Shown here one piece after another: positions 1 through 27,965 of a stretch of 41,807 nucleotides of DNA. This DNA is from Anaerolineae bacterium. GTDB lineage: Bacteria > Chloroflexota > Anaerolineae > Anaerolineales > Villigracilaceae. Numbering within the stretch: position 1 is the stretch's first letter; every line of letters starts with the position of its first letter. The notes beneath the pieces were generated by a model. It was not told the origin of the DNA. It was given only the letters and a program-made list of their open reading frames with translations, and did no database searches. The stretch is from NCBI GenBank assembly GCA_017303655.1, contig JAFLCE010000029.1, positions 1-41,807 on the forward strand. Reading direction: 5' to 3'. The position numbers were made by a program, and so were the translations under genes.

Positions 1-2
1 TT

Positions 3-12497: not shown

Positions 12498-12502
12498 ATT
12501 TT

Positions 12503-12530
12503 ATCCCGCAGCCTCTCTGCGGGATTTTTA
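12503..12530 (+). terminator. Rho-independent terminator
   Basis: ATCCCGCAG (12503-12511), loop CCTCT, CTGCGGGAT (12517-12525), then TTTTATTT. It closes the radical-SAM operon. Confidence 0.92.
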
Positions 12531-12638
12531 TTTGGAGATCAAGCAAGAAGTTCTTGGAAAGGTTACTTGCCTAGCACGTACAATAAACGGTAAAATGGAC
12601 GCGATATTTATATTCCCAAATCATCGGAGGAAATCTGT

Positions 12639-13622: not shown

Positions 13623-13628
13623 GATGAT

Positions 13629-13659
13629 GTTCAGGGAGAGGCTTAGCCTCTCCCTGAAC
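13629..13659. terminator. Strong hairpin after the PrsW gene
   Basis: GTTCAGGGAGAGGC (13629-13642), loop TTA, and its perfect complement (13646-13659). No T-run follows, so termination may be inefficient. It lies 27 bp before the tRNA. Confidence 0.6.
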
Positions 13660-13685
13660 TTGGCATGGTAAAATTCCGTCCGCTC

Positions 13686-13757
13686 GCCCCCATAGCTCAG
13701 TGGACAGAGCGTCAGCCTCCGGAGCTGAAGAGCGCAGTTCGAGTCTGCGTGGGGGTG
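13686..13757 (+). tRNA. tRNA-Arg (CCG)
   Basis: A full cloverleaf can be folded: acceptor GCCCCCA/TGGGGGT (first pair G-U), D arm GCTC/GAGC, anticodon stem TCAGC/GCTGA around loop CTCCGGA (anticodon CCG), and T arm CGCAG-TTCGAGT-CTGCG. CCA is not encoded. A terminator follows at once. Confidence 0.95.
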
Positions 13758-13761
13758 CCTG

Positions 13762-13797
13762 AAATATCCGCCTGTTGTGGGCGGATATTTTATTTTT
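13762..13797 (+). terminator. Terminator of the tRNA gene
   Basis: AAATATCCGCC (13762-13772) pairs with GGCGGATATTT (13780-13790), followed by TATTTTTA. Confidence 0.9.
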
Positions 13798-13815
13798 AGA
13801 TACAATTATCTCGTT

Positions 13816-14895
13816 ATGCGAAAAACATCCATGCTCGTTTGTGCTGTGTTGCTCCTCTGTGCTGGCTGTGCCCGGATAGAAACAGAGCCCACGCGCATTT
13901 CCCTACCAGAATTTGTCACTGCCACCTTGCCACCGGTCACTGCCCCGGCTGCGACGGTGACGCCTTTACCGCCCACTCCCATGCCCACCCTCACGCCGGT
14001 GGAAGGTATGACGACATCCGAGATCAATGTACGCGCAGAACCCTCCACGGCAAGTGCATCGTATGGCACGATTCCAGCATTCAGCAAGGTGCAAGTGTTG
14101 GGTAAAGATATCAGCGGAAGTTGGTATCGAATCTCTTTCAGTGCTGCGCCAGATGGCTCGGGCTGGGTGCGTGCTGATTTTGTGCAAGTGGATGCTGCGG
14201 CGGAGATCCAAGTTTTGGGAGCAGGAACAGGCAACGGGTCCGGTGTGAGCGGACTGGTCTTGAGAGGCGTCTACGTGCGCACGGGTCCCGGCAAGGATTT
14301 TGAGTCGCTCGGGCTTTTGAATCAAAATGATGTAGTTGCCATTCAGGGCAAAGACAGCTCAGGCGGTTGGATGAAAATCAACTACGCCCCCGCACCTGAT
14401 GGGAGCGGCTGGGTGGCGGCAGAATATTTGCAGATCGAAAACGTTGAGAGCATTCCGGTGCTAACGGATGATGCGGCACCGACAGAGCAAGCTGCCGACC
14501 CGATCACTACTGTTGCAAGTTCAAGTGTGCAACTCGCTTTGCCAGAAGGCGACACTAGCGAGAGCCCGTTGGCTTCATTTCTATTTTCTCCGACGGCACA
14601 ACGCAGCGGGCAGGCGCAGGGAGATGTCTCTGCCTCGCAAGGTGACTTGGATGACTGGTTCGCGCTGGAGAGCAGCCAGGCAAAAATCGTCATTGATCTG
14701 TTCTGTGAAAGCGGTACCCTTCAAGTAGAATTATGGCAAGCAGGCAGCCTAACCGCAAGCCACGCCATGCCTTGCGATACGAATCTTTTATTGAACGTAA
14801 GCCCTGATCAGGTATACGGCTTGCGGCTTAGCATCCCCCAAACGAGCCCTGTTGCATATATTGCCTATCGAATAACATTTAAAGTTGAAGATTAA
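13816..14895 (+). CDS. Lipoprotein with two SH3b domains
   Basis: A 359-aa lipoprotein. MRKTSMLVCAVLLLCAGCAR gives a lipobox (LCAGC, Cys18). A Thr/Pro linker (TPLPPTPMPTLTP) precedes two bacterial SH3 repeats. The first runs from INVRAEPSTASASYG to GSGWVRADFVQ; the second runs from VYVRTGPGKDFESLG to GSGWVAAEYLQI. The C-terminal 110 residues form a beta-rich domain resembling pre-peptidase C-terminal (PPC) domains (DDWFALESSQAKIVIDLFC). The start at 13816 is chosen for the signal peptide. TACAAT at 13801 is only 9 nt upstream, so the leader is very short or absent. SH3b domains usually bind cell wall or peptides. It is followed by the FecR and CHASE2 genes on the same strand. Confidence 0.87.
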   Translation: MRKTSMLVCAVLLLCAGCARIETEPTRISLPEFVTATLPPVTAPAATVTPLPPTPMPTLTPVEGMTTSEINVRAEPSTASASYGTIPAFSKVQVLGKDISGSWYRISFSAAPDGSGWVRADFVQVDAAAEIQVLGAGTGNGSGVSGLVLRGVYVRTGPGKDFESLGLLNQNDVVAIQGKDSSGGWMKINYAPAPDGSGWVAAEYLQIENVESIPVLTDDAAPTEQAADPITTVASSSVQLALPEGDTSESPLASFLFSPTAQRSGQAQGDVSASQGDLDDWFALESSQAKIVIDLFCESGTLQVELWQAGSLTASHAMPCDTNLLLNVSPDQVYGLRLSIPQTSPVAYIAYRITFKVED

Positions 14896-14915
14896 TCACC
14901 GAGTGAGGAGTACGC

Positions 14916-16118
14916 ATGAAAAGAAAAACCTTTATTTTATTGACCTGCCTTGCATTGATCGCCGCCGTGGCAGGCTGCCAACCTCAGGAAGACTCTACGC
15001 CGCTTTCTGCAAAATTAACCGAGTTGACCGGGCTGGTACAACTTAAGCAAAACGCCGAGGCTGAGTTTGCCCCTGCCGCCCCGGATTCAAGCCTGGATGT
15101 AAATGGACAAGTCCAAACCGGGGATGACGGGCGCGTACGGCTCGACCTTAGCTCGGGCACGATCATCCGCATTGCGCCTTCTTCCATCTTTACGTTGACC
15201 TCTAACGACGAAACCGAAGGCGGGCTGATCACGCGTATTCAGCTTGAGGCTGGCAAGATCTTTATCATCCTCAACGGCGGACAAGCCGATGTAGAAACGC
15301 CCTCGGGCGTGGCATCAGTGCGCGGTTCATACATGAAAGTGGAAGTAGACCCAGTTACCAAGACAATCTACATCACCTGCCTCGAAGGCGATTGCTCCGC
15401 GAGCAACCCTGCGGGTGCTGTCAACTTTACCAACGGACAGAGTGTAGTGCTCTTTGCTCAAGACGAGCAAGGCAATTGGACTGTGCCCTCTGTGGGACAA
15501 ATGACCCCTGAAGAATTTCAGGAATGGTTAGATGAAAACCCCGAAGCTCAAGAATTTTACGAGCAAGGCATCGCCGCTTTAACCGCGTTAGCACCCACCG
15601 AAGAAGCGACCGAAGTCCCGACCGAAGCACCCACTGAAGTTGCTACCGATGAACCGACGGAAGTTCCTACTGAAGTTAATTCGGCGGTACCGCCTGCCGG
15701 AGCAAGCAATGCTTGTTCGGTTTTGCAAGAACCCGCCAATGGCAGCGGACTTGGGAAGATCGGCAACACCACCTTTACATGGAGCGAACAACCCGGCGCT
15801 ACTGCGTATGTGGTTACTTTCATTAATGAAAATGGAGTCCGTGTGCGGGTTGGGACGAATACAAACAGCACAGCCCTCTACATTGAAATTCTCGGCGAAG
15901 GCGGAAGCTATGAATGGTTCGTGACCGCTTACGATGAAGGCGGTAACGAGCTTTGTACCAGCACCGCATCCACATTCTCAAAGCCGCAGGGTGACCCAAC
16001 GCCCAAACCCAAGCCGGAAGATAAACCGGAAAGACCGAACCCTACAGAAGAGGCTCCCTATTGTGACCCCTGCGATTACCTCGGCAGTTGCTATACTCCG
16101 TATTATTGCTTTGAATAA
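14916..16118 (+). CDS. FecR-domain lipoprotein
   Basis: A 400-aa protein with signal peptide and lipobox (AAVAGC, Cys21). Residues 30-150 are a FecR domain: GLVQLKQNAEAEFAPA, NGQVQTGDDGRVRLDLSSGTIIRIAP and ETPSGVASVRGSYMKVEV. A Glu/Pro/Thr repeat linker (PTEEATEVPTEAPTEV) and a fibronectin/Ig-like domain (NTTFTWSEQPGATAYVVTF) follow. The tail is cysteine-rich (YCDPCDYLGSCYTPYYCFE). A GAGGAG site sits before the ATG. The gene lies 20 bp after the SH3 lipoprotein and precedes the CHASE2 cyclase, a FecR-CHASE2 pairing also seen in cyanobacteria. A role in envelope signalling is inferred. Confidence 0.87.
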   Translation: MKRKTFILLTCLALIAAVAGCQPQEDSTPLSAKLTELTGLVQLKQNAEAEFAPAAPDSSLDVNGQVQTGDDGRVRLDLSSGTIIRIAPSSIFTLTSNDETEGGLITRIQLEAGKIFIILNGGQADVETPSGVASVRGSYMKVEVDPVTKTIYITCLEGDCSASNPAGAVNFTNGQSVVLFAQDEQGNWTVPSVGQMTPEEFQEWLDENPEAQEFYEQGIAALTALAPTEEATEVPTEAPTEVATDEPTEVPTEVNSAVPPAGASNACSVLQEPANGSGLGKIGNTTFTWSEQPGATAYVVTFINENGVRVRVGTNTNSTALYIEILGEGGSYEWFVTAYDEGGNELCTSTASTFSKPQGDPTPKPKPEDKPERPNPTEEAPYCDPCDYLGSCYTPYYCFE

Positions 16119-16170
16119 TAATCTTGCAGGGCTTGACGAAACCAAAAATATCTTCCAAACGTCTCATATG

Positions 16171-16193
16171 TCACGGAGTTCACAGAGAAAAAG
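16171..16193. repeat. Partial CACGGAG-type repeat
   Basis: TCACGGAGTTCACAGAG followed by an A-run resembles the left half of the palindrome at 5270-5342. It lies in the 137-bp gap before the cyclase gene. The pairing half is poorly conserved (CTCGGTGTACTC at about 16199). Confidence 0.45.
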
Positions 16194-16255
16194 TTTATCT
16201 CGGTGTACTCTATGGCTATGTATAGCAGTTAAAAAGTGAAACAGGATAAACCATC

Positions 16256-18151
16256 ATGCCAAAAGACAGCAAGCCTGTAAACCTGCGTCTCATCCTTGTG
16301 CTTGGCACTGCCGTGCTGTTGCTGGGCGTGCAAGTACTGGGACTTTTCAGCAATATCACCACTCCGCTCGAGCGGATCGAATTTTCAATGGTGGATACCT
16401 TCACGCGTTTGCGCGGCGTTGATGAGCCCTCGGGTGAGATCGTGATCGTGGCGATCGACGATGCCTCCTTTAGTTGGACAGGCTTGCAGTGGCCCTGGCC
16501 ACGCTCATACTTTGCGGAAGTTGTGGATCAGATCAACCAGGGCGGCGGCAAAGTGGTCGGCGTGGATATCTTTCTTTCGGAGCCAGATACTGCTGAGAAT
16601 GACCAAGCATTTGTTGAGGCGCTTTCTGAGTCGCCGTCTGCGGTTTCGGTAATTCAGATCGTGCGGACTTCGGGGCAGGGCTTTCAGGGTGAGTCTTTGG
16701 TGCAGCCATTGACTCCCTACCGCGAGGTGTTAGATGGTACAGGTGTGACGGATATTTTCAGAGATGAAGATGCCATCGTACGCAATGTGATCGCACTAGG
16801 GACGTATCAAGGTGAGATTTACCCGCATTGGGCGTTCGAGATCGCGCGCCTGTATTTGGGTGTGGATAAACCCGTATTCAACGGCACAAATCTACAATTC
16901 AATGGGCAGACGGTTGCGTTGAGGTCGGGTCAGTTGCCGATCTATTATTCGGGTCCGGCAGGCACGTACCCGACCTACTCCGCTTCGGATGTGCATGACG
17001 GCATCACGCTCGAACAAGACCCGGATGCGTTTCGCGACAAGATTGTGTTGATCGGTGCGACTTCGATCACGTTGCAAGATATTTACCCAACTCCATTTTC
17101 TGCCTCAACCCCCACGCCAGGGGTTGAGATCGTGGCGAATGCGATTGATACCATTATTCAGGGCAGGTACATCACCTACGCCCCACCGTGGCTGGGCTTG
17201 CTCATCATCCTTGCGGCGGCGGGGTTGGCGTATCTGATCACACTGTCGAAGCGCCCATCTGTGACGATCATTGTCATGTCTGTGGTGATGGTCGGCTATT
17301 TGGTGATGGCTTTTGTATTCTCTGCCCAGCAGCGCTATATTTTGCCGGTGGCAGGACCCGAGATCATGTTGTTCTTGGGCGTGGTATTGCCCACGCTTGA
17401 ACACGCCGTTTCGCAAGAGCGTGAAAAACGGCGCGTACGCAATTTGTTCAGCCGCTTCATCTCACCTGAAATGGTAGACCAGATGATGAAGACCCAGGAC
17501 TTGAACTCGGTGAATAAACGCGCCGACCTGACCATCATCTTTAGCGATATTCGCGGGTTCACCACGCTTTCTGAAAAGCTCACGCCCGAGGGTGTGGTTT
17601 CGCTCTTGAACCCCTATCTTGAGGCGATGTCTCAAGTGATCTACAAACATGGCGGCACGGTGGATAAATACGAAGGCGATGCCATCATTGCCTTCTTTGG
17701 CGAGCCTGTGCCTTATAAAGACCATGCCGCACGCGCCTTACGCGCCTGTTTGGATATGCGCAAGTCGCTGGCGGAACTGCGAGAGAAGTGGGCAAAAGAG
17801 GGTCGCCCCAGCCAGATCGAAATGGGTGTGGGTGTGAACTCGGGCGAGGTGTTTGTAGGCTTGCTCGGTTCGGAGCAGCGCATCAACTATACGGTGATCG
17901 GGGACAATGCCAACCTGGCGGCTCGCCTGCAAGACCTGACGAAGACCTATGCCTGGCCCATTTTGATCAGCGAGAGTACGTATCTGCAAGTGAAGGATGA
18001 GTTCGATACCGAGCTTGCAGATGCGGTGACGGTGAAGGGCAAGACCAAAGCGGTGAATGTGTATAAGGTGATCGGGCTTAAGGGTGCGCCAGAAAGTGAA
18101 AAGCTAAAGGCGTGGACGAGTGAGCAGGTGAAGCCGACGCACGAGATGTGA
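16256..18151 (+). CDS. CHASE2-domain adenylate cyclase
   Basis: A 631-aa membrane sensor that makes cAMP. A TM helix lies near residues 9-28. An extracellular CHASE2 domain follows (about 40-305; IVIVAIDDASFSWTGLQWPWPR is the family start). Three TM helices occupy about 305-385, and the cytosolic class III cyclase domain about 420-600. Catalytic residues are present: metal-binding D431 (FSDIRGFT) and D475 (KYEGDAIIAFFG), purine-selecting K471 and T546 (NYTVIGD), and N553 and R557 (NLAAR). Lys plus Thr indicates ATP rather than GTP. It comes after the FecR and SH3 lipoproteins, which may feed its outer sensor domain. No cAMP receptor gene is in the window. Confidence 0.93.
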   Translation: MPKDSKPVNLRLILVLGTAVLLLGVQVLGLFSNITTPLERIEFSMVDTFTRLRGVDEPSGEIVIVAIDDASFSWTGLQWPWPRSYFAEVVDQINQGGGKVVGVDIFLSEPDTAENDQAFVEALSESPSAVSVIQIVRTSGQGFQGESLVQPLTPYREVLDGTGVTDIFRDEDAIVRNVIALGTYQGEIYPHWAFEIARLYLGVDKPVFNGTNLQFNGQTVALRSGQLPIYYSGPAGTYPTYSASDVHDGITLEQDPDAFRDKIVLIGATSITLQDIYPTPFSASTPTPGVEIVANAIDTIIQGRYITYAPPWLGLLIILAAAGLAYLITLSKRPSVTIIVMSVVMVGYLVMAFVFSAQQRYILPVAGPEIMLFLGVVLPTLEHAVSQEREKRRVRNLFSRFISPEMVDQMMKTQDLNSVNKRADLTIIFSDIRGFTTLSEKLTPEGVVSLLNPYLEAMSQVIYKHGGTVDKYEGDAIIAFFGEPVPYKDHAARALRACLDMRKSLAELREKWAKEGRPSQIEMGVGVNSGEVFVGLLGSEQRINYTVIGDNANLAARLQDLTKTYAWPILISESTYLQVKDEFDTELADAVTVKGKTKAVNVYKVIGLKGAPESEKLKAWTSEQVKPTHEM

Positions 18152-18280
18152 GAAATCCTGCTTCGTCGGGCGAAAAATCGGATGCTGCGGCTCGGGCGTG
18201 GGAGAGGTTTGATTTGGGGACCCAAGCCTGAGCGAAGCTGGAGGCGGTGGGTTTCCTCCGCTTTTTCGTTTGTGAAGCAC

Positions 18281-18298
18281 TTGTACCTAATTGTACAA
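18281..18298. promoter_or_regulatory. Probable Rex operator
   Basis: An 18-bp inverted repeat TTGTAC-N6-GTACAA, matching the TTGT-N10-ACAA outline of known Rex sites. It overlaps the -35 box of the rex promoter, so NADH-sensitive autorepression is likely. Confidence 0.7.
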
Positions 18299-18319
18299 AA
18301 TCTGTTTTTTTGGTATAGT
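18291..18319 (+). promoter_or_regulatory. Sigma70-like promoter of rex
   Basis: -35 TTGTAC (18291-18296), 17-bp spacer with a T-run, -10 TATAGT (18314-18319). The start codon is 29 nt beyond the -10 box. Confidence 0.75.
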
Positions 18320-18348
18320 TATGGCTACACTACAAAAGGCGAGGGCTC

Positions 18349-18966
18349 ATGAACGCGAGGAAAATTCCCGATATTATCATTGGTCGACTGCCGGTGTATT
18401 TGCGTGCGCTTCAACGCATGGCAGATATGGGGTTGAAGACGACTTCTTCTCAGGAGCTGGGCGAGCATGTGGGGATTTCTGCGGCGCAGATCCGTAAGGA
18501 TATTTCTCAGTTCGGCGAGTTTGGCAAGCAGGGTACGGGCTATTCGATCGAGTATTTGATCGAGCAGTTGCGTGAGATCTTGAAGGTAGACCGCATTTGG
18601 GATGTGGTGGTGATCGGTGCTGGCGATATGGGGCATGCCGTGGTAAATTACCAGGGCTTTAATGATCGCGGTTTTCATATTGTGGCGATCTTTGATAATG
18701 ATAAGGAAAAGGTGGGACATGAGATCGGCAAATTTAAGGTGGAAGATGCCGAGACGATGATCGAGCGGATCAAAAGTATGGGGGTAAAAGTGGCGATGTT
18801 GGCTGTACCTGCTGCGGCGGCACAAGCGGCGGCGGATCAGTTGGTGCAGGCAGGCGTGCGAGCGATCTTGAATTACGCCCCCATTAGCTTGAACGTGCCC
18901 AATAATGTGAAGGTGCAGTATATCGACCCATCTATCCATTTGCAGAGAATGACGTTTTATTTGTAA
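18349..18966 (+). CDS. rex: Redox-sensing transcriptional repressor Rex
   Basis: A 205-aa DNA-binding repressor that senses NADH/NAD+. The N-terminal winged helix (residues 1-80) carries the family stretches RLPVYLRALQ, SSQELGEHVGISAAQIRKD and SQFGEFGKQGTGY. The Rossmann motif GAGDMG (90-95) binds NAD(H); most relatives read GAGNLG. The C-terminal helix ends in the usual YIDPSIHLQRMTFYL-type tail. It is probably autoregulated through the operator at 18281. Targets elsewhere would be fermentative or respiratory genes. The cassette array begins about 145 bp downstream. Confidence 0.95.
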   Translation: MNARKIPDIIIGRLPVYLRALQRMADMGLKTTSSQELGEHVGISAAQIRKDISQFGEFGKQGTGYSIEYLIEQLREILKVDRIWDVVVIGAGDMGHAVVNYQGFNDRGFHIVAIFDNDKEKVGHEIGKFKVEDAETMIERIKSMGVKVAMLAVPAAAAQAAADQLVQAGVRAILNYAPISLNVPNNVKVQYIDPSIHLQRMTFYL

Positions 18967-19081
18967 GACAAATTTAGTCGGGGATGGGCGTGGTGTTTGC
19001 CAAGGCTTTTATGCAATCTATAAGGTGTTATCCCACAAGGGGACTTTACAGCGGAATGGCAGTTAAGTACCCTAATTTGGG

Positions 19082-19107
19082 TGTTTATACAGCGCGCTGT
19101 ATAAACA
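19082..19107. promoter_or_regulatory. 26-bp perfect palindrome at the array's left edge
   Basis: Arms TGTTTATACAGCG and CGCTGTATAAACA meet without a loop. It ends 3 bp before GTTGGGC (19111-19117), the first cassette boundary. It could be a regulator site, a relic of an attachment site (attI-like), or the inner part of an attC whose left core is lost. The remaining DNA from 18967 to 19081 contains no gene. Confidence 0.6.
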
Positions 19108-19152
19108 GTAGTTGGGCAGTTCACGAACAAAGCAAATTGGTAATTGCAAACA

Positions 19153-19647
19153 ATGAACAAAAAAACTGAAGTTATAGGAATTGTAATCATCATACTTGCG
19201 TTGATTGTTTTGATATTTGGTGATAATTTATATCAGCAAATCAACGGGCTTTCGTTCTTTGAAAACACTCCTACAGCAACAAATCACCAAGTAGAAACGC
19301 CTTCCCCGACATTACAGCAATCTATTCAAATTCAACCAAGCCTAACCCCACCTACAACAATTGCCATCACATCGGTAGTACAAAATTTAGAAGGTACTGT
19401 TTGGGCTGGAACAGATTCAGATGGAGATTATTATGTGTACGAATTTTTGCCTGGGGGTGTTCTAAAATTCACATCACCAACAGGTACTTTTGCTGAGGAT
19501 AAATGGGAACAAAATGGTAATTCAGTCTACATGGAGATGAGCAATAAATATTGTGAATATACAGGTGTAATAAACGGCGATACAATAACAGGCAATGCTT
19601 GGAATAAGGATGGTCATACATGGACTTGGACTGCAAAAAAACAATAA
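19153..19647 (+). CDS. Cassette 1: membrane-anchored secreted protein
   Basis: A 164-aa hypothetical protein. One N-terminal TM anchor (VIGIVIIILALIVLIFG, about residues 7-23), a Thr/Pro/Gln-rich linker (40-70), then a small beta-rich domain with WAGTDSDGDYYVYEFLPGG and GDTITGNAWNKDGHTWTWTA. This pattern resembles small lipocalin-like beta barrels. The ATG at 19153 is preferred over a TTG 9 nt upstream. The cassette starts at GTTGGGC (19111) and ends at GCCCAAC (19684). No function is recognised. Confidence 0.72.
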   Translation: MNKKTEVIGIVIIILALIVLIFGDNLYQQINGLSFFENTPTATNHQVETPSPTLQQSIQIQPSLTPPTTIAITSVVQNLEGTVWAGTDSDGDYYVYEFLPGGVLKFTSPTGTFAEDKWEQNGNSVYMEMSNKYCEYTGVINGDTITGNAWNKDGHTWTWTAKKQ

Positions 19648-19683
19648 GCCTAAAGTTTAGATAGCGTTTCCTGCCGCACCACT

Positions 19684-19813
19684 GCCCAACAAAGCGTGCA
19701 CCTGACGCTGGGGAGTCTGCGGCAATCCCAAGCAGTTTCCTACGCCTTATCATTTCTCTGGCTGGACGGCTTCGCCGTCCCTGCCCCAGCGCAGGTAACG
19801 CAAACCGTTGGGT
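19684..19813 (+). repeat. attC site 1
   Basis: Left core GCCCAAC (19684-19690), right core GTTGGGT (19807-19813), 130 bp. The interior folds on itself: ACCTGACGCTGGGG near 19700 pairs with CCCCAGCGCAGGT near 19785, and GGACGGCTTCGCCGTCC forms a terminal hairpin. This is the longest and best-structured of the sites. Confidence 0.85.
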
Positions 19814-19848
19814 GGTTCCTTTGCAATGGAAAAGTTTTTAGGTCATCG

Positions 19849-21123
19849 ATGAAATATCTGATTATTGGATTGAGTTTTATTTTCCTATCTGCGTGTTCTG
19901 GATTCAATCTCCAAACATCTCAGCCTGCTCAAACTCAGAATATCTCTATTATTACCGAAACACCTATCAAAACGCCCACAGTGACTCCAAGTCCACTTTC
20001 CACTGCCCCGAGTCTGGAACTCCCCACTTGGATGAGTAATCCCAACACTGCCATACTAGCAGCACTGATAAGAGATGATGTAAATCAAATTCGCAAAATC
20101 CATTTCATCAACCCCGCCACAGAAGAAAAATATGAATTAAGTGTACCTAATGACTATGGTGGATTTTTTTGGTATGACAATATGAATCTTGGGGTAATCG
20201 TTAAAGATACTGAAACTGCACAAAAATTCAACTTGCAAACAGGGCAAATCACCATAGAACCTGTCCCACCTTTTAAGCCTGATAAATTCTGGAAAGACAG
20301 CATTTCTATAAATCAAAACTATATTGCTCAATGGGACAGAGATAACAAAATAATCACAGTTGAGGATACAAGAACCAATGAAATGCTTTGGGAACTTGTC
20401 CTGCCTGAAAATAGATATGGGACTGAAATTGAGTGGTCGCCAGTAAGCGAAAATCACTTGGCATTCCTTCAAGGCAGCCTTTCTCTTAGCGGGAAAATCA
20501 CTGAAGATATGGCACTAACCATTGTAGACATAACCAATGGAGAAATTCTCTCGACTTACAATGGAAACTTTGGGATGCTTGAATGGTCTCCAAATGGAAA
20601 AATGATTCTTTATCTAAATCCTTATTTTCGTTATCGCAACTACGGCATTTCATTTAAAGACGCACCATGTTTGCTGATATTAGCAACAAACGAAACAAAG
20701 TGTCTAAGAAGTATTCCGAAAATTATCCCAACAGGTTACGAGCTTCTTACTACTGGTATTTATAAATGGGCAAGCGACTCAAATTCGATTTTCTTCACTT
20801 ACACATACAATTTACCAAATCGGTGGAGTATTCTGGGTAATTTATGCAATTATAGTTTAATAGACAGCCGCATTGATTGCGCAACTCAAGGTTTGAAGGT
20901 GCTTCACGAGAGAAGTGTAATCAACTATAAATTATCCCCCAATGAACAATTTATCCATTTTTGTTATTCGAAGTCAACTCTTGTTGAGGATGCTGCTGGC
21001 GAATCAAGTGATGGAATAATCAAACCAGATGGAACTGGCTTTTTCTCATGGACAGGTACAATTCTAGACGGAAGTCCAAGCCCGATGTGTTCGTGGGATT
21101 CATATTGGAGACCTCTACCATGA
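19849..21123 (+). CDS. Cassette 2: lipoprotein, beta-propeller-like
   Basis: A 424-aa lipoprotein. MKYLIIGLSFIFLSACSG gives a lipobox at Cys16. A Thr/Pro linker (25-55) precedes repeated strands typical of WD40/TolB-type propellers: IEWSPVSENHLAFLQG, LEWSPNGKMILYLNP, YKWASDSNSIFFTYT and YKLSPNEQFIHFCYS. The start at 19849 is chosen for the signal peptide; the open frame reaches back to 19696 but there it translates attC DNA. It is the largest cassette product. It may bind peptides or cell wall; the ligand is unknown. Confidence 0.8.
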   Translation: MKYLIIGLSFIFLSACSGFNLQTSQPAQTQNISIITETPIKTPTVTPSPLSTAPSLELPTWMSNPNTAILAALIRDDVNQIRKIHFINPATEEKYELSVPNDYGGFFWYDNMNLGVIVKDTETAQKFNLQTGQITIEPVPPFKPDKFWKDSISINQNYIAQWDRDNKIITVEDTRTNEMLWELVLPENRYGTEIEWSPVSENHLAFLQGSLSLSGKITEDMALTIVDITNGEILSTYNGNFGMLEWSPNGKMILYLNPYFRYRNYGISFKDAPCLLILATNETKCLRSIPKIIPTGYELLTTGIYKWASDSNSIFFTYTYNLPNRWSILGNLCNYSLIDSRIDCATQGLKVLHERSVINYKLSPNEQFIHFCYSKSTLVEDAAGESSDGIIKPDGTGFFSWTGTILDGSPSPMCSWDSYWRPLP

Positions 21124-21128
21124 AAACC

Positions 21129-21225
21129 ACCCAACAAAGCGTGCAGCAAAGATACTACCTGATTTTTCCAGTTGGACGGCTTCGCCAAGTCCGCGCAACG
21201 GGGCAGGTAACGCAAACCATTAGCC
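21129..21225 (+). repeat. attC site 2
   Basis: Left core ACCCAAC (21129-21135), right core ATTAGCC (21219-21225), 97 bp. The right core has A instead of G at the crossover base and a C inside RRR, so recombination here may be impaired. Even so, TTAGCC is the complement of the GGCTAA at the end of cassette 3. Confidence 0.8.
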
Positions 21226-21251
21226 AGCATCAGCGTATTGGATAAAACACA

Positions 21252-21743
21252 ATGGATGATAACGAAAAAAGACGCAGAGAATGGTTTCAAAGCTATGTAA
21301 ATCGCATAGAACAAGGCACCATAAAAGCCCCACGTCCAGGAATGATTTATGCTTGTCCATGTTGTGGATACCCCACACTTCATGAGCGGGGTGGTTATGA
21401 CATATGCCCATTATGTAACTGGGAAGATGATGGACAAGATGATCCACATGCCGATGAAGTTTGGGGAGGTCCGAATGGAGCATATTCACTTACAGAAGCG
21501 CGCGAGAATTTCAAGAAGAATTTAGTGATGTATGGACCGATCGACCCGCGCATCGGTGGAGCGGATAGCTTATTTGAAAAGAAAGCAAAACAGTTAATGA
21601 TCGATGCGTTTGAGCAGATGCGTGGTGAAACGATTTCGGAAACCTTGGACAAATTATGGAAAAAGGTAAGTGAGAGTCAGAAAATTCTTGATCAAAAAAC
21701 CGAGAGAAAAATTCGCGAGCATGAGGAACAGCACAAAAAGTAG
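21252..21743 (+). CDS. Cassette 3: CPCC-type cysteine-rich protein
   Basis: A 163-aa cytosolic protein. Residues 35-85 carry YACPCCGYPTLHERGGYDIC, then PLCNWEDDGQDDPHADEVWGGPNGAYSL. This is the hallmark of the CPCC family, a probable zinc-binding domain often found in toxin-immunity-like and cassette contexts. The C-terminal 60 residues are charged and helical. The start is 27 bp after the attC core. A role in defence or immunity is only a guess from family neighbourhoods. Confidence 0.85.
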   Translation: MDDNEKRRREWFQSYVNRIEQGTIKAPRPGMIYACPCCGYPTLHERGGYDICPLCNWEDDGQDDPHADEVWGGPNGAYSLTEARENFKKNLVMYGPIDPRIGGADSLFEKKAKQLMIDAFEQMRGETISETLDKLWKKVSESQKILDQKTERKIREHEEQHKK

Positions 21744-21758
21744 CTCGCAGAAAATGCT

Positions 21759-21855
21759 GGCTAACACAGCGTGCAGCAAAGATACTACCTGACTTTTCTG
21801 GTTGGACGGCTTCGCCAAGTCCGCGTGACAGGGCGGGTAACGCAAACCGTTGGGC
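21759..21855 (+). repeat. attC site 3
   Basis: Left core GGCTAAC (21759-21765), right core GTTGGGC (21849-21855), 97 bp. The middle has GGACGGCTTCGCCAAGTCC. Confidence 0.85.
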
Positions 21856-21901
21856 ATTTGTACATTAAAAGTCTCTAGCTTTTAGGTTGTGGAGAATAAA
21901 A

Positions 21902-22396
21902 ATGATATATGAACAAAAGAAATATCCAAATATCAGTATTGTCTTAGGATTCTTGTTTTTTTCTCTCTTTATACTTTTTACCTTATTGATTTGTAATTTG
22001 GCTACAACTGGCTATTTAGTTTACAAAGTTCAATCATCTGCCACTTCTCAAAACACAGCGAAGTGGTACGGAGAACGTTCAACACAGTTCATCTCTCCTG
22101 CCATATGGATACCTCTTGACGAGATTCCTCTTGCATATCAAGTTACTGATATGGAAAGGGCTACAGTAGATGTTCCTTCAGACCAAGTGCATATTGAAAA
22201 AGGAGATGGAAAGACTTTTCTAAGGTTTTTTGAGGGAAATGGTGGAAGATATTATTGGCCAAACGACTTAAATATTGAGATGATTACAGAAGTAAGTAAA
22301 TTAAATAATCCCGTTGTACTTCAGTTTGAAGTTACAAAGTATGTGCATTCAAAAGGATGGTTTTTGGTTGTGGAAACAGTGACCATCAAGGAATAA
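21902..22396 (+). CDS. Cassette 4: membrane-anchored hypothetical protein
   Basis: A 164-aa protein. One TM segment (about residues 13-38, GFLFFSLFILFTLLICNL) and an extracytoplasmic beta-rich domain (WIPLDEIPLAYQVTDMERATVDVP, VVLQFEVTKYVHSKGWFLVV). GGAG lies 7 nt before the ATG at 21902. The cassette runs from GTTGGGC (21849) to GCCCAAC (22432). No family recognised. Confidence 0.7.
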   Translation: MIYEQKKYPNISIVLGFLFFSLFILFTLLICNLATTGYLVYKVQSSATSQNTAKWYGERSTQFISPAIWIPLDEIPLAYQVTDMERATVDVPSDQVHIEKGDGKTFLRFFEGNGGRYYWPNDLNIEMITEVSKLNNPVVLQFEVTKYVHSKGWFLVVETVTIKE

Positions 22397-22431
22397 CTCC
22401 ACAATGAAAACGAACAAGCCAACAAGGACAT

Positions 22432-22546
22432 GCCCAACAAAGCGTGCAGCAAAGATACTACCTGACTTTTCTGGTTGGACGGCTTCGCCAAGTCCACGCG
22501 ACGGGGCGGGTATCCCCTTCGGGGACGATGGCACAAACCGTTGGGC
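22432..22546 (+). repeat. attC site 4
   Basis: GCCCAAC (22432-22438) to GTTGGGC (22540-22546), 115 bp. The right arm carries an extra hairpin, TATCCCCTTCGGGGACGATG, also found in site 5. Confidence 0.85.
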
Positions 22547-22602
22547 TGCCAAGTCAGTGAAAAATCCATGTCATACAACACAGCAAAAGGAGCAATGGGA
22601 CA

Positions 22603-23190
22603 ATGAAAAAAAGTATTTTGATATCAGGTATTATTTTGATGGTTTCATATCTAATAAGTAGTTGTGGCTCAACACCTCAAATGGCCCCAACCATTGAGCC
22701 AACTCAAATTTCGATGGAGACAAGTACTCCAGAACCTACATCTACTGAAACTCCATCGCCCACATTAACACCCACTGCAATTCCTACCCTTGCCTTCTAT
22801 TCGGTTGATCCCACAATCGTAGCCACAGCCGAAAGTTGTAGCGCTCTCCCTGGCACAATTTGTGTTCCAGCATTAAGCATATCTTTATCTGGGCAGAAAT
22901 TGGATAAATACGAAGTGGTTATGAGTTACCCAGGGTTTTCTGGAACATCTTTTGAATGTCCTCAACAGGCGTTATTGGTTTCTTTTGGTGAAAATATGGC
23001 TCCAGTTATCTGCAACAGTGATGAAATTACGTTCATCTCGGTTGGTCTCACAGAAATTACAATTACGATAAATTGGAATGGCGGCTCTGTCACAGAAACA
23101 CTTTATCCAAATTTTGAAGTATCTGCGCCACAAGGAAAAGATTGTGAACCACAATGCACTATCGGAAAAGCAGAAATGAACATTCCATAG
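22603..23190 (+). CDS. Cassette 5: lipoprotein
   Basis: A 195-aa lipoprotein. MKKSILISGIILMVSYLISS ends just before the lipobox Cys21. A Thr/Pro/Glu linker (TSTPEPTSTETPSPTLTPT) covers residues 35-65. The C-terminal domain (75-195) is beta-rich with five cysteines (CSALPGTICVPALS, FECPQQ, KDCEPQC), probably disulfide-bonded. No family recognised. Confidence 0.75.
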   Translation: MKKSILISGIILMVSYLISSCGSTPQMAPTIEPTQISMETSTPEPTSTETPSPTLTPTAIPTLAFYSVDPTIVATAESCSALPGTICVPALSISLSGQKLDKYEVVMSYPGFSGTSFECPQQALLVSFGENMAPVICNSDEITFISVGLTEITITINWNGGSVTETLYPNFEVSAPQGKDCEPQCTIGKAEMNIP

Positions 23191-23213
23191 CATAGTTGCG
23201 CGGCGCAAAGGCA

Positions 23214-23328
23214 GCCCAACAAAGCGTGCAGCTAAGATACTACCTAGCTTTTCTAGTTGGACGGCTTCGCCAAGTGCGCGTGTCAGGGCAGGTATCCCCT
23301 ATCGGGGACGAGCCGTAAACCGTTAGGT
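23214..23328 (+). repeat. attC site 5
   Basis: GCCCAAC (23214-23220) to GTTAGGT (23322-23328), 115 bp, with the same inner hairpin and right-arm insert as site 4. Confidence 0.83.
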
Positions 23329-23373
23329 GACTTCGCTAGTTTCCCAAGTAGAAATAAAAACTTTGGTAAAGTT

Positions 23374-23841
23374 ATGCAAATAAAGGTATCAAATCCAAAA
23401 CTTATAGTGGGATTAATCGTCCTAGTTGCGGGAATTATTTTTTGTGCACTTTTGTCAATTCCTTCTCGCCGTTCCGGAGAGGAATTATTTAAAGATATAG
23501 TTCTTGATCCAATACCAAGCAGTGTAATTGTTCTTCACAGTCAAGATAATGAAACAGGATTTGATGGAAGGCTTTGGCTACATTTCAAAATCTCACCTGA
23601 TGACCTTGACCTTGTATTAAATTCTAAAAAATGGGAACTCAATCCTGAAATTAGTTATCAGATAAGTAATGATGATGGAAAAATGAAAAGCTGGTGGAGT
23701 CCGCTGTCACTTGGTAATAATATTATGCAATACTCAATACTCATAAAGAGTGACGGCGACCGTAAGAGAATTAAATATATATGGATTAACTCACAAAGAA
23801 ATGAAGTATATTTACTTTACTTTGATGAGTTTACACACTAA
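23374..23841 (+). CDS. Cassette 6: membrane-anchored hypothetical protein
   Basis: A 155-aa protein with an N-terminal TM anchor (LIVGLIVLVAGIIFCALLSI, about residues 10-29) and an extracytoplasmic domain (VIVLHSQDNETGFDGRLWLHFKIS). The start at 23374 is chosen because the upstream part of the open frame translates attC site 5. The cassette opens with GTTAGGT, but its end core is AGCCAAC rather than the expected ACCTAAC, so its two ends no longer match. Confidence 0.68.
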   Translation: MQIKVSNPKLIVGLIVLVAGIIFCALLSIPSRRSGEELFKDIVLDPIPSSVIVLHSQDNETGFDGRLWLHFKISPDDLDLVLNSKKWELNPEISYQISNDDGKMKSWWSPLSLGNNIMQYSILIKSDGDRKRIKYIWINSQRNEVYLLYFDEFTH

Positions 23842-23917
23842 AGTAAAAAGTGATAGATGATTCCAGAAGGATTTCAAGTAAGTTTTTTAGCGAGTAAGCC
23901 TTACGCAATAATACGCC

Positions 23918-23992
23918 AGCCAACAAAGCGTGCAGCAAAGACACTACCTGACTTTTCTGGTTGGATGGCTTCGCAATGCAAATCTGTTAGGC
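23918..23992 (+). repeat. attC site 6 (short)
   Basis: AGCCAAC (23918-23924) to GTTAGGC (23986-23992), only 75 bp. The right arm lacks the GGTAACGC block. Confidence 0.7.
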
Positions 23993-24008
23993 AGTTACTA
24001 TGTGAAAC

Positions 24009-24656
24009 ATGGATGATACAAATAAAAAATGGGAGAATAAAGTATTAACTGTCTGCAACAGTTGCAGACAAAATCTTCGTATTCCAATCTCATACAAACC
24101 CCTGCATGTTACTTGTCCAAAGTGCAAAAATGAGTTTCTTTACAATTACACAGGAGAATTCGGAAATGACGGGGAATATTATGCAGAAATGCAAATTCAA
24201 TCAATATTATTAATACTCATTTGGATATTAATTTATTTAGCTGGCTTCATTATCTGTATCGCAATTAAAAACTTCTTTGGCGTAATTATTTGCATCTTAG
24301 CAGGAATACTTATAGTTCCAAAATTAATTAACTACAAAACATTTTTTAGATACCAGTCAATAAAACTACTTATTATTAACCGACAAGGAATTATTTATTT
24401 TGACGGAGAACTTAGGGCAAAAGAATGTCTGAATTGGACTGATATAAAATCAGCGAAATATATGTATACGCGGCGGATGTTCGCAGGATTAATTGAGACA
24501 AAAAGAGAACCAGCCTACATTGAACTAGACATGTCCGGAAAAGGCAAGGTACTTGTGCCACCTGCTATATTCTTTAGTGATAAACAACGAATAAAAATTA
24601 TTGATGATATATTAAGGCATTATGGCTCCAACTCTTTTTTCGGAATGTATAATTGA
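24009..24656 (+). CDS. Cassette 7: zinc-ribbon membrane protein
   Basis: A 215-aa protein. The N-terminal zinc ribbon (CNSCRQNLRIPISYKPLHV then CPKC, residues about 16-39) is followed by two TM helices (about 65-110). A C-terminal domain, perhaps PH-like (LLIINRQGIIYFDGELRAKECL), completes it. The start is just 17 nt after the attC core. Zinc-ribbon plus TM proteins of this type are common but uncharacterised. Confidence 0.72.
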   Translation: MDDTNKKWENKVLTVCNSCRQNLRIPISYKPLHVTCPKCKNEFLYNYTGEFGNDGEYYAEMQIQSILLILIWILIYLAGFIICIAIKNFFGVIICILAGILIVPKLINYKTFFRYQSIKLLIINRQGIIYFDGELRAKECLNWTDIKSAKYMYTRRMFAGLIETKREPAYIELDMSGKGKVLVPPAIFFSDKQRIKIIDDILRHYGSNSFFGMYN

Positions 24657-24690
24657 TATAGTTCAAATTCAAAAGCGTCCCACAAAACCT

Positions 24691-24710
24691 GCCCAACAAA
24701 GCGTGCAGCA
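24691..24710 (+). repeat. attC site 7, left half only
   Basis: GCCCAAC (24691-24697) and AAAGCGTGCAGC are present, but the usual middle and right core are missing. The DNA to 24790 has an unrelated AGGCAG...CTGCCT hairpin. This suggests a break or replacement in the site. Confidence 0.6.
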
Positions 24711-24790
24711 ACCTTGAACGAGCATCAGGACAGTCCATCTTAGGCAGGCACCATCTGCCTGAACGGAAAATTGTACAGGAAGGTTATGAA

Positions 24791-25159
24791 ATGGAATGGA
24801 ATTTAGTAATACATGATAAAGATAGATATCTTGAAGTTGTCACTAGCGGCATAGTGGATAGTGATGGCACTGTAGATATGGCACAGGCGATAGCTCAGAC
24901 AATGAAGAGCAATCGGTTGACAAAAGCATTGATCGATCATCGCAATGTCGTGAACGTGCTCGGCAGCACTCTTGCTACCTATAATCGACCAAAAATCTTA
25001 CGCTTTATCGGATTAACTCTTGGGATCAAGCTTGCGGAGTTGATCCGACCAGAGCATGAAAATCATTTTAAATTTTTCGAGACAGTATGCTTCAATCAAG
25101 GCTATAAACTTTCTGTGTTTTATGATAAAGAAACCGCACTAACCTGGTTGCTTAAATAA
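24791..25159 (+). CDS. Cassette 8: STAS/SpoIIAA-like small protein
   Basis: A 122-aa cytosolic protein. The pattern YLEVVTSGIVDSDGTVDMAQ, then KALIDHRNVVNVLGSTLATY and a C-terminal VFYDKETALTWLLK, resembles SpoIIAA/STAS-like domains (alternating strands and helices). It has no membrane part, unlike most neighbours. AGGAAGG precedes the start. The upstream site is truncated, so this gene may have entered by ordinary recombination. Confidence 0.65.
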   Translation: MEWNLVIHDKDRYLEVVTSGIVDSDGTVDMAQAIAQTMKSNRLTKALIDHRNVVNVLGSTLATYNRPKILRFIGLTLGIKLAELIRPEHENHFKFFETVCFNQGYKLSVFYDKETALTWLLK

Positions 25160-25261
25160 GTATAAATTATTGGGTTTTTAAGATGAACCTATATAGAGTA
25201 TAAGACCACTATCATTCAATGGTAGTAATGTATTCTATACATCAAATAGGCATTAGCCTTT

Positions 25262-25332
25262 TTCTGAGGGACGGCTTCGCCAAGTCCACGTGACGGGACG
25301 GGTGTCTACGGAGCAAGCCACAATTGTTAGGT
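25262..25332 (+). repeat. attC site 8, right half
   Basis: GAGGGACGGCTTCGCCAAGTCC and the following GTGACGGGACGGGT match the middle of other sites. The right core is GTTAGGT (25326-25332). The left core is not recognisable. 25160-25261 holds no gene. Confidence 0.65.
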
Positions 25333-25366
25333 ACTTGTCATAAATATCAAAAAAGTGAGGAAAGAT

Positions 25367-25840
25367 ATGAAAACCATTGGCAAGGCAATGTTACTTTCAG
25401 TACTAGTTATCGTATTAGCGTCGTGTAGTACTTTTGCACCTCAACCAACAGAGACGCCCACACCCACTGCGACCAAAACCTCAGCACCAACTAGCACTTC
25501 AACCAAAACTCCTGTTCCAGCAACTGAAACACCTTCCGCTCCTGAGTTACCCATGCCATCTGGAAAGCCTGCCAGTGAGTGGGAGGGTATTCCCATTATG
25601 CCGAATGCGATTGCAGGAGAAGGCGACAGCAAAGGTTATTCCTTTACAATTAATGCTACACCTGAAGAAATCCAAAAATTCTACGAAAAAGAATTAGGGG
25701 AACAAGGATGGAATATGTTTGCCAGTGGACAAGGCACAACCAATGCCATTTTGTTAATATTCATGAAAGATATAAGCACTTTATCTGTATCTATTATTCC
25801 TCAACCAGATGGCATCATGTATGTTTTATTAGTAAAATAA
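25367..25840 (+). CDS. Cassette 9a: lipoprotein
   Basis: A 157-aa lipoprotein: signal peptide with lipobox (LASC, about Cys20), Thr/Pro-rich linker (TETPTPTATKTSAPTSTSTK), then a domain of about 90 residues. That domain contains GIPIMPNAIAGEGDSKGYSF and INATPEEIQKFYEKELGEQG, typical of small alpha/beta lipoproteins of this phylum in which a residual peptide-like term is squared against a helix. AGGAAAG lies just before the ATG at 25367. It shares its cassette with the next gene: no attC lies between them. Confidence 0.75.
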   Translation: MKTIGKAMLLSVLVIVLASCSTFAPQPTETPTPTATKTSAPTSTSTKTPVPATETPSAPELPMPSGKPASEWEGIPIMPNAIAGEGDSKGYSFTINATPEEIQKFYEKELGEQGWNMFASGQGTTNAILLIFMKDISTLSVSIIPQPDGIMYVLLVK

Positions 25841-25889
25841 ATATTACTTTAAAGTATTCAATAAAAATTCCTTCAAAAAGGGTTAGATC

Positions 25890-26453
25890 ATGGCAAAATG
25901 TCCTGCTTGTAAAAACGTAGTGTTGGAATTATCAAATTTCGAAAACTCCCTACCTGTTATGAATTGCAGTTCATGTGGCGGGTCGTGGTTGAGAGCAAAT
26001 GAATATGCTCGTTGGCTAAAATCTCAAAAACCTGGTTCTTTTGAAGAGGATAAAACTAAAGAAGTCAGCAAACGCTTCCCTGTTGTTGAATCTAATAAAG
26101 CCACACTTTGCCCTGATTGCGGTCACCTACTGCGAAAATATAATATTGGTGCAAAAGTTGATTTTCATTTAGATCGTTGTAATAACTGCAATGGGGTCTG
26201 GTTAGATAAGAATGAATGGGAAGCATTGAAAGCGGCAGATTTACATGATGAAATTAATCAGTTTTTTACAAAACCCTGGCAACAAAATATTCAAAGCAAA
26301 GTAACTGCCAGTAAATTTGATGCGATGTACTTGGAAAGGTTTGGAGACAGCGATTATCAAAAGATCAAAGAAATCAGAGAGTGGCTTCAAGAACATCCAA
26401 ATCGAAATAACCTAATTGCCTTCCTTTTGGATAAAGACCCATTCTCAACATAA
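25890..26453 (+). CDS. Cassette 9b: double TFIIB-type zinc-finger protein
   Basis: A 187-aa cytosolic protein with two zinc-finger motifs of the zf-TFIIB type: CPAC...NCSSCGGSWL (residues 4-33) and CPDCGHLL...CNNCNGVWLDKNEWE (about 73-110). The GxWL(D/R)xxE pattern after the second CxxC is diagnostic. Function of such proteins is unknown. It is 49 bp after cassette 9a with no attC between, so the two may be one two-gene cassette. Confidence 0.8.
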   Translation: MAKCPACKNVVLELSNFENSLPVMNCSSCGGSWLRANEYARWLKSQKPGSFEEDKTKEVSKRFPVVESNKATLCPDCGHLLRKYNIGAKVDFHLDRCNNCNGVWLDKNEWEALKAADLHDEINQFFTKPWQQNIQSKVTASKFDAMYLERFGDSDYQKIKEIREWLQEHPNRNNLIAFLLDKDPFST

Positions 26454-26508
26454 AGGTACTCCACAAAGGTCAAGCTACAATACCGCTTCGGGCACAAGAT
26501 CATTGGGC
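26454..26508 (+). repeat. attC site 9, decayed
   Basis: CCACAAAGG (compare CCAACAAAGC) and TACCGCTTCGGGCACAAGAT followed by ATTGGGC (26502-26508) parallel the right end of site 4. The middle is deleted. Confidence 0.5.
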
Positions 26509-26535
26509 TATTGCCCTCCAAATTAAGGATTGCTA

Positions 26536-27039
26536 ATGGTATATCATCTTAATCAAAAATGGAAATTGATTATTGTAGGTTGTGGAGTCATTGGCTGTTT
26601 GTTTGGATTGGGATTCTTTGTTCCGATATTCTTCTCTAACCAAACTGCAAGAGATGCTATGTTACTTTTGATAGTGGGGTTATTTTTCCTGTTAATGGGT
26701 GCAGAACTGGTATATGAAGGAACAAAAACAAAAATAGAGATTTTTGAAGATGAAATCATCTATCATCAATCAAGATACACCTTTTCAGCACGCTGGAAAA
26801 ACCTTCAGCGGATAGCACCATCATATGGGCTATTGGTGTTAATGTTTTCAGACCCAAAGGAAATAAACTGTGGGGCGATTTATAAAATATTGAAGTCGCT
26901 TAATATGCATTCCGGGCTGGCAATCAACTACTATCTTACTAAGAACAACAAAGAATTTATAAAAGAGAAGATAATTACCGCAACAAATCTTTCTGACAAA
27001 AACGATATTGCGTTATTAGATCAAATATTGCAACCATAA
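26536..27039 (+). CDS. Cassette 10: membrane protein
   Basis: A 167-aa protein. Two TM helices (about residues 10-30 and 42-60), then a basic soluble domain (IEIFEDEIIYHQSRYTFSARWKN) resembling bacterial PH-like domains. AAGGA precedes the ATG at 26536. The last cassette gene, followed by a degraded attC. Confidence 0.68.
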   Translation: MVYHLNQKWKLIIVGCGVIGCLFGLGFFVPIFFSNQTARDAMLLLIVGLFFLLMGAELVYEGTKTKIEIFEDEIIYHQSRYTFSARWKNLQRIAPSYGLLVLMFSDPKEINCGAIYKILKSLNMHSGLAINYYLTKNNKEFIKEKIITATNLSDKNDIALLDQILQP

Positions 27040-27100
27040 CAGCTCTTTCTGGTGGGATGGCTTCGCCAAGTCCGCGTGACGGGGGCGGGTCGTAAGTTTT
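27040..27100 (+). repeat. attC site 10, decayed right end of array
   Basis: TGGGATGGCTTCGCCAAGTCCG, then CGTGACGGGGGCGGGT, match the other sites. Neither core is intact. It marks the right limit of the array, 25 bp before the pirin gene. Confidence 0.6.
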
Positions 27101-27125
27101 CCAAACCTAAAATCATCCATACCGC

Positions 27126-27965
27126 ATGACCCCACGAACCATTTCCCACATTATCGAACCCAATATGGTGATCGAAGGCGCAGGCGTATTATTGCGCCGC
27201 TCCTTTGGTCCACACGCCAGCAACAAATTCGACCCTTTCCTGCTCTTCGACCATTTCGCCTTCAACAATCCGCTCGAAGGACCCGTGCGCGGCTTCCCCA
27301 CTCACCCGCATCGCGGCATCGAAACCGTCACCTACATGCTCGAAGGCACCGTCCGCCACCGCAACAGTCTCGGCAACCAGGGCACCATTGCCGAAGGTGA
27401 CGTGCAATGGATGACCAGTGGACGAGGCATCCTGCACGAAGAAATGCCCCGTCGCAGCGCCAACGGAAATATCTACGGCTTTCAATTGTGGGTCAACCTG
27501 CCTGCTGCCGAAAAAATGAGTCAACCCCGCTATCAAGAAGTGACCGCCGGAAGCATTCCACAAGTCCAAAAAGATGGCGTTACGATTCGACTCGTCGCCG
27601 GAGACTATGAAGGAATCCGCGGACCCGTGACCGAGATCGCCGCCGCGCCTCTTTACATGGACGTGAAGCTGGATCCTGGTGCCCGATTCAGTTACCCCAT
27701 CCCAAGCGGACACACTACGTTGATGTACGTCTTTGAAGGCACAGGTGAATTTTCAGGGGAGGTCGTAGAATCCGTCAGCATGGTGGTGTTCAACGACGAT
27801 GGCGACCAGATCGAGGTTAAGACAGAGGCGGGCGTCCGCTTTATGCTGATTGCAGGCGCACCGTTCAAAGAGCCCATCGTACCGTACGGTCCCTTTGTGA
27901 TGAACACCCGCGAAGAGATCGAGCAGACTTTGCGCGACTTGAAAAATGGCACGTTCATAAAATAA
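27126..27965 (+). CDS. Pirin family protein
   Basis: A 279-aa bicupin. The metal site is intact: PTHPHRGIETVTYMLEG supplies two His, and GRGILHEEMP supplies His and Glu. Pirins bind iron; some have quercetinase activity, so the role is open. The 279 residues are the normal length. TAAAAT at about 27106 gives a short leader. Composition returns to the genome norm here. A hairpin follows. Confidence 0.9.
   Translation: MTPRTISHIIEPNMVIEGAGVLLRRSFGPHASNKFDPFLLFDHFAFNNPLEGPVRGFPTHPHRGIETVTYMLEGTVRHRNSLGNQGTIAEGDVQWMTSGRGILHEEMPRRSANGNIYGFQLWVNLPAAEKMSQPRYQEVTAGSIPQVQKDGVTIRLVAGDYEGIRGPVTEIAAAPLYMDVKLDPGARFSYPIPSGHTTLMYVFEGTGEFSGEVVESVSMVVFNDDGDQIEVKTEAGVRFMLIAGAPFKEPIVPYGPFVMNTREEIEQTLRDLKNGTFIK

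Follow-up and report, generated by a model that had tools for sequence, protein, structure and literature searches.

Among the known systems closest to the one reported here are the sedentary chromosomal integrons at ilvD in Xanthomonas, where, according to the part of PMC12444791 that treats them, the gene for the integron integrase (intI, encoding IntI) has been inactivated by stop codons or large deletions in many strains while the cassette arrays remain. Clusters of attC sites lacking an integron integrase (CALINs) and lying away from intI are, in published excerpts, common, and attI sites are described in the relevant section of PMC9024848 as poorly characterised outside class 1. Chloroflexota is already among the phyla listed with integrons in passages of PMC9668308 and a second paper, and the literature includes text naming integrons alongside Anaerolineae or Anaerolineales (e.g., PMC12772301, in the part bearing on this). 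A search with most subscription journals outside its reach found nothing joining integron with Villigracilis, or CALIN, attC and integron with Chloroflexi. Judged mostly by titles, it returned no title on extra or orphan attI sites.

The subject of this analysis is a cassette array in a 41,807-nt stretch of DNA (the window), which is contig C95 of a 4.6-Mb Anaerolineales assembly (G000; 172 contigs, 93.6% complete, 5.8% contaminated). Eleven open reading frames (ORFs), all on the + strand, span 19153–27039, and a repeat of ~75–130 nt recurs between them from 19111 to ~27095, decaying toward the right end. An attI site heads the array, and the left neighbour is what we take to be a rex-like redox-sensing repressor gene (18349–18966, +). 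We consider it probable that this is a sedentary chromosomal integron from which intI has been deleted. The first-pass annotation had proposed an integrase-less cassette array in a Chloroflexota chromosome with all 11 genes facing one way. Both points are upheld, the former by the cassette ends, an attC model and the absence of a detectable IntI. As at ilvD in the sections of PMC12444791 concerned, a fixed locus beside a housekeeping gene appears to have lost intI and kept its array, with CALINs elsewhere. The phylum is different, the locus is rex, and here a recognisable attI stands without adjacent intI at several loci of one genome. The window also resembles a CALIN in having an attC array and no adjacent intI. 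It differs in that its attI is still present, whereas attI falls outside the CALIN definition as worded in the pertinent passages of PMC9024848 and PMC9668308. The complete integrons of the same genus (in G102, G144, G132, G106 and others) share its attC and attI families, but they have intI. The window element is thus a variant of known integrons, and what is new is the attI family, often found without adjacent intI.

The case for an integron starts from the cassette ends. An integron cassette opens with GTTRRRY and closes with the complementary RYYYAAC. In five of the seven testable cassettes of the window (1–5) the end matches the cassette's own start exactly, as first claimed, with prefix matches after GTT of 7, 8, 9, 6 and 8 bases. 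The ends of cassette 7 are one base apart (AGGCAG versus GGGCAG) once its start is registered by eye; it entered the automated scoring one base out of register and so scored 0. Cassette 6 fails, with a prefix of 0 and 5 of 9 bases identical. The prefixes sum to 38, where the full set of 5040 permutations averages 15.7, and 2 of these reach that sum, the true order included, in agreement with the earlier statement that such matches are unlikely for ordinary repeats. Eight contigs of G000 were tried for cassettes, of which C88 and C136 gave none; the other six yielded 26, although one C98 entry begins at a likely chance match. A prefix of at least 6 was found in 10 of the 26, against a mean of 0.9 and a maximum of 6 over 20,000 shuffles. 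These ten comprise five in the window, four on C152 and one on C96, while the arrays on C98 (0/3), C129 (0/5) and C158 (0/2) fail the test.

The attI site occupies 19009–19113 (+), directly before cassette 1. It carries CTATAAGG at 19018 and two inverted-repeat stretches, the second of which, TTTATACAGCGCGCTGTATAAA, is perfect, and it ends in CAGTAG^TT at 19111, so that the array starts at the G of GTT at the insertion point. Its core has 0 mismatches to TTATACAGCNNGCTGTATAANNNNTAGTTNG, and it scores 51.9 bits against a profile of six intI-linked attI regions, with homology from 19009. In several integrons of the same genus the interval between intI and cassette 1 likewise holds ATATAAGG, two inverted repeats (TTATACAGC..GCTGTATAA) and TAGTT at the insertion point; L148 and L149 have a different interval. 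Inspection by eye for a cassette promoter Pc showed a TATAAT to the left of attI in several of the relatives, which the window has not retained.

The same-genus set comprised 54 genomes (34 listed with IntI, 19 listed without, and G000); as 44 further genomes without an IntI match lie outside it, 34/54 is not a prevalence. The attI pattern (up to 3 mismatches) occurs at 34 places in 19 of the 54, compared with 0 of 54 for a backward control. Thirty of these places were fetched for neighbourhood comparison. IntI lies within 1.5 kb at 7 and not at the remaining 23, 7 of which are less certain, 3-mismatch matches, and some loci end at a contig edge. Several of the 15 "IntI" queries in this neighbour search were longer neighbouring ORFs, and the repeat search used six, selected by length and start. 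An attC match follows downstream at 19 of the 30. The ends of the first cassette match over at least 8 bases including GTT at 16 of these 19 (shuffled mean 2.6, maximum 9), failing at L209, L201 and L202. Seventeen of the 19 attI-headed arrays lack an adjacent IntI, and 14 of the 17 have matching first-cassette ends. G000 itself has three attI-headed arrays, in the window and on C152 and C160. Short tandem runs such as GGTAATTGG were noticed by eye where intI would be expected (L044:11455-11530, and upstream of attI in L190 and L210), and these are possibly linked to the mode of intI loss.

Modelling of the attC sites required some care. MAFFT misplaced the left arm when short and long attCs were mixed, and models were therefore built from hand-chosen full-length sites, a subset of all those seen. 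The 27-site set combined seven from G000 with 20 from six same-genus loci with intI. Model R1 includes the seven G000 sites (one of them lies in the window), and its results on these seven are circular, whereas R2 was built from the 20 sites of integrase-bearing relatives only. The 27 sites share a 24-pair structure in which 96.0% of cells are paired, against 82.9% in shuffles, and the stem covariation score is 0.359 versus 0.117; in neither case did any of 500 shuffles score as high. Sliding the structure gave 23–39% paired, and in the inner helix of 17 pairs both partners vary in 8. The left arm holds one unpaired A and one unpaired GC, as expected for extrahelical bases.

Run on the whole window at E up to 10, R2 gave six matches (127.6, 33.1, 22.2, 21.8, 13.6 and 12.7 bits), all on the + strand and inside the array and four with E<0.001, which bears out the attC identity suggested for the repeats. 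The window thus has one canonical attC and five short or eroded ones. With R1 (E up to 1), all 33 matches in three complete same-genus regions score at least 57.5 bits, whereas five of the six in the window reach at most 32.8, R1 being partly built from these sites. Four sites (R2 E<0.001) fall within 2.9 kb, and by our own attC model the array therefore classes as a CALIN, i.e., at least two attC sites less than 4 kb apart and no IntI.

The folding core said to be shared by the sites held up in part. The better-preserved sites do have outer arms in common, but among the bottom-strand folds of eight sites only site 1 lies far from its shuffles (z −4.24). The others gave z of 0.67, 0.00, −2.11, −1.48, 0.45, 2.10 and −0.60, the input for sites 2–7 lacking the two initial bases of R''. 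Beyond 24691 all sites are truncated or decayed. The short-attC core GACGGCTTCGCCAAGTCC has 50 matches in the genome (up to 1 mismatch; backward control 0). The short form is nearly private to G000, with 17 matches (up to 3 mismatches) there and one each in two of the 53 other genomes. Repeats spread through the genome without cassette genes had been named as grounds for doubt, and some core copies on C88 do lack arms, but the window array stands by its end matches. On that contig (L041:226-2704) the copies lie ~90 nt apart, several without outer arms.

An intI elsewhere in the genome had been named as possible support, yet TIGR02249 found nothing over cut-off in the 93.6%-complete assembly of G000, the best match reaching 40.1 bits against a cut-off of 265. 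The best matches are tyrosine recombinases also found by the general family, and matches below cut-off occur in all 14 controls too. Nearer the array, no IntI-like match was detected at E 0.01 in 12001–27500, or at 1e-6 in the window. Among relatives IntI is frequent: of 150 genomes of the family, 86 gave a TIGR02249 match at E up to 1e-40 (84 above cut-off), against 0 of 14 controls, and at E up to 1e-60 it was found in 44 of 400 sampled Chloroflexota genomes. Given these counts and the two papers that already list the phylum, the locus does not widen the phylum's record as the first-pass annotation had expected. Outside the family, four Chloroflexota genomes (G288, G450, G163 and G368) have two or three IntI matches each, and stop codons interrupt one of the three in G288.

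The rex locus itself carries intI in some relatives. Rex was found in 49 of the 54 same-genus genomes, and intI lies downstream of it in at least three of the 49 (G108, G092 and G147). In G108 (= L077) IntI lies on the opposite strand ~140 bp downstream of rex, and the TAGTT of an attI marks the end of the contig. In G092 and G147 the distance from rex is 2.5–2.7 kb, with IntI in the same orientation; the IntI of G147 (equated with L102 from identical coordinates) is a 50-residue piece at a contig end. In the window, ~40 bp without intI separate rex from the start of the attI homology. With its own attI kept and intI present at the locus in some relatives, the window is more than a loose attC cluster. 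A parallel case is offered by C152 of G000, where an attI-headed array lies beside gene gC152. In six of the 47 genomes carrying gC152, compared like rex via listed IntI and attI places, the neighbouring IntI is present (G132, G133), broken (G097), or absent while attI, whole or as a relic, remains (G000, G137, G008). The single-contig genome G008 gave no IntI match at E up to 1e-40, and it retains nine attC matches along with its attI relic. Taking the rex and gC152 loci together, loss in place is the best account of the window.

Several observations weigh against deletion of intI at rex. No remnant of it is left in the window, and at 46 of the 49 same-genus rex loci the listed matches (E up to 1e-40) include no IntI closer than 3 kb, fragments and contig ends having been checked for some. 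Rex identity does not single out the three loci with IntI as the nearest (81, 76 and 75%), so insertion may have struck rex repeatedly, without an ancestral site there, as an alternative to loss in place. In an assembly of 172 contigs that is 93.6% complete, a trans-acting intI may fall in a gap; because intI is near a contig end in many relatives (by eye), such gaps could hide it in G000. Cassettes 2–5 retain matching ends despite poorly folding attCs. Finally, on two measures the attC structure fares no better than its shuffles: pairs in which both partners vary (10 vs 8.2; 49/500) and further pair types (19 vs 20.2; 422/500).

It is rather unlikely that the locus is a satellite platform that never had a local intI, with attI, alone or with cassettes, copied here from another integron and filled in trans by an IntI from elsewhere (in an assembly gap, or formerly present). 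The three attI-headed arrays of G000 and the 23 of 30 attI sites without IntI close by would fit such an origin, as would the varying left edge of attI homology between loci and two attI sites without adjacent intI, in G054 and G144, that are 99% and 98% identical (104 nt) to the intI-linked attI of the same genome. The intI at rex in relatives speaks against it, however, and over 104 nt the window attI has only 76% identity with the C152 site and 54% with the C160 site, so it is no recent copy. Within-genome attI similarity is slightly raised (0.661 vs 0.614, 114/5000 shuffles as high; core 0.862 vs 0.821, 40/5000), and near-identical attI sites occur within a genome in two of the nine genomes with at least two fetched sites, a weak signal overall. 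We regard an ordinary CALIN, formed by off-target cassette insertion at a chance chromosomal site (attG), as very improbable: CALINs away from intI are common in the literature as excerpted, but here the insertion point lies within a conserved attI motif (backward control: no match across 54 genomes), and a chance site would not carry an attI module. Ordinary dispersed repeats with genes between them and no integron deserve almost no credence. Most sites do fold poorly, armless core copies exist on C88 and three arrays fail the end-match test, but this explanation is refuted by the own-start/own-end rule, the covariation of the attC stem and the closely similar attCs in arrays adjoining IntI in relatives.

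Under deletion, IntI would once have put circular cassettes into attI at 19111, presumably by recombining a bottom-strand attC with the double-stranded attI as in known integrons, each insertion leaving GTTRRRY at the cassette start and the complementary RYYYAAC at its end. In some relatives intI is found downstream of rex, on the opposite strand and followed by attI; we infer that here it was later removed, with a breakpoint just left of attI, rather than attI and array having arrived late. The array would now be inactive, frozen without a local IntI unless one acts in trans, with its distal end eroding. More tentatively, the genus may possess a distributed integron, in which attI is a discrete ~85-nt module (made up of ATATAAGG and two inverted repeats, or a shorter version with a single repeat) at many loci, each copy heading its own array and the window being one such platform; one integrase, where present, could then supply several of these with cassettes in trans.

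With an attI that can be recognised outside class 1, integron platforms can be found after the loss of intI, and the survey reveals that IntI is very common in one Chloroflexota family. The question whether CALINs come from loss of intI or from the spread of attI becomes testable, since intI is seen both present and absent at two loci, and at one of them also broken. What deserves to be pursued is the large number of attI-headed platforms that have no intI beside them.

All cassettes lie on the + strand. Cassette 1 (19112–19807; ORF 19153–19647) has the canonical attC (model match 19684–19813; 127.6 bits, E 1.3e-36), and its end match covers 10 bases including GTT. Short attCs follow in cassettes 2 (19808–21219; ORF 19849–21123, attC 21129–21225, R2 E 8.5e-5), 3 (21220–21849; ORF 21252–21743, attC 21759–21855, E 4.5e-8), 4 (21850–22540; ORF 21902–22396, attC 22432–22546, E 1.2e-4) and 5 (22541–23322; ORF 22603–23190, attC 23214–23328, E 0.033). 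Cassette 6 (23323–23986; ORF 23374–23841) has an eroded attC (23918–23992, E 0.066), and the truncated attC of cassette 7 (23987–24745; ORF 24009–24656), at ~24691–24745, gave no R2 match at E up to 10. Nor did the eroded tail (24746–27095), where partial repeat matches place attC remnants at ~25245–25327, 26450–26510 and 27035–27095 among ORFs at 24791–25159, 25367–25840, 25890–26453 and 26536–27039. A Pfam scan of 10 of the 11 cassette proteins (E up to 0.01) gave two matches above family cut-off, PF14206 for the cysteine-rich CPCC protein of cassette 3 (E 3.2e-19) and PF13453 for the zinc-ribbon protein of 25890–26453 (E 1.8e-20); of the rest, two had weak matches below cut-off and six had none. 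By eye, two or three cassette proteins have lipoprotein-like N-terminal starts, including those of cassettes 2 and 5.

To the right of the array lies a presumably pirin-like gene (27126–27965, +). It had no tblastn match (E 1e-5) in 80 named rex loci of relatives, many of them truncated, and the 11 cassette proteins had no tblastn match there either. These loci are mostly from Anaerolineales or other Chloroflexota, and the closest named relative by the rex gene is Candidatus Villigracilaceae bacterium (86% identity). Genes upstream of rex are conserved among them, that at 16256 in 36 of 80 and that at 14916 in 26 of 80. An Rfam scan of the window found nothing beyond one tRNA.

Further attC-like repeats or cassette arrays occur on G000 contigs C17, C83, C88, C96, C98, C129, C136, C152, C158 and C160, the best preserved being that of C152, with four canonical attCs and attI. 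Elsewhere in the genus, a 30-kb stretch of G132 (C2 1792164-1822557) holds 20 listed attC matches ~0.5 Mb from the intI on the same contig. In L148:6653-14544 (G127:C1), several closely similar insertions start inside attC-like ends (AACAAAGCGTCCTCAGAAACC); these are perhaps a transposon family of IS110/IS1111 type that targets attC.

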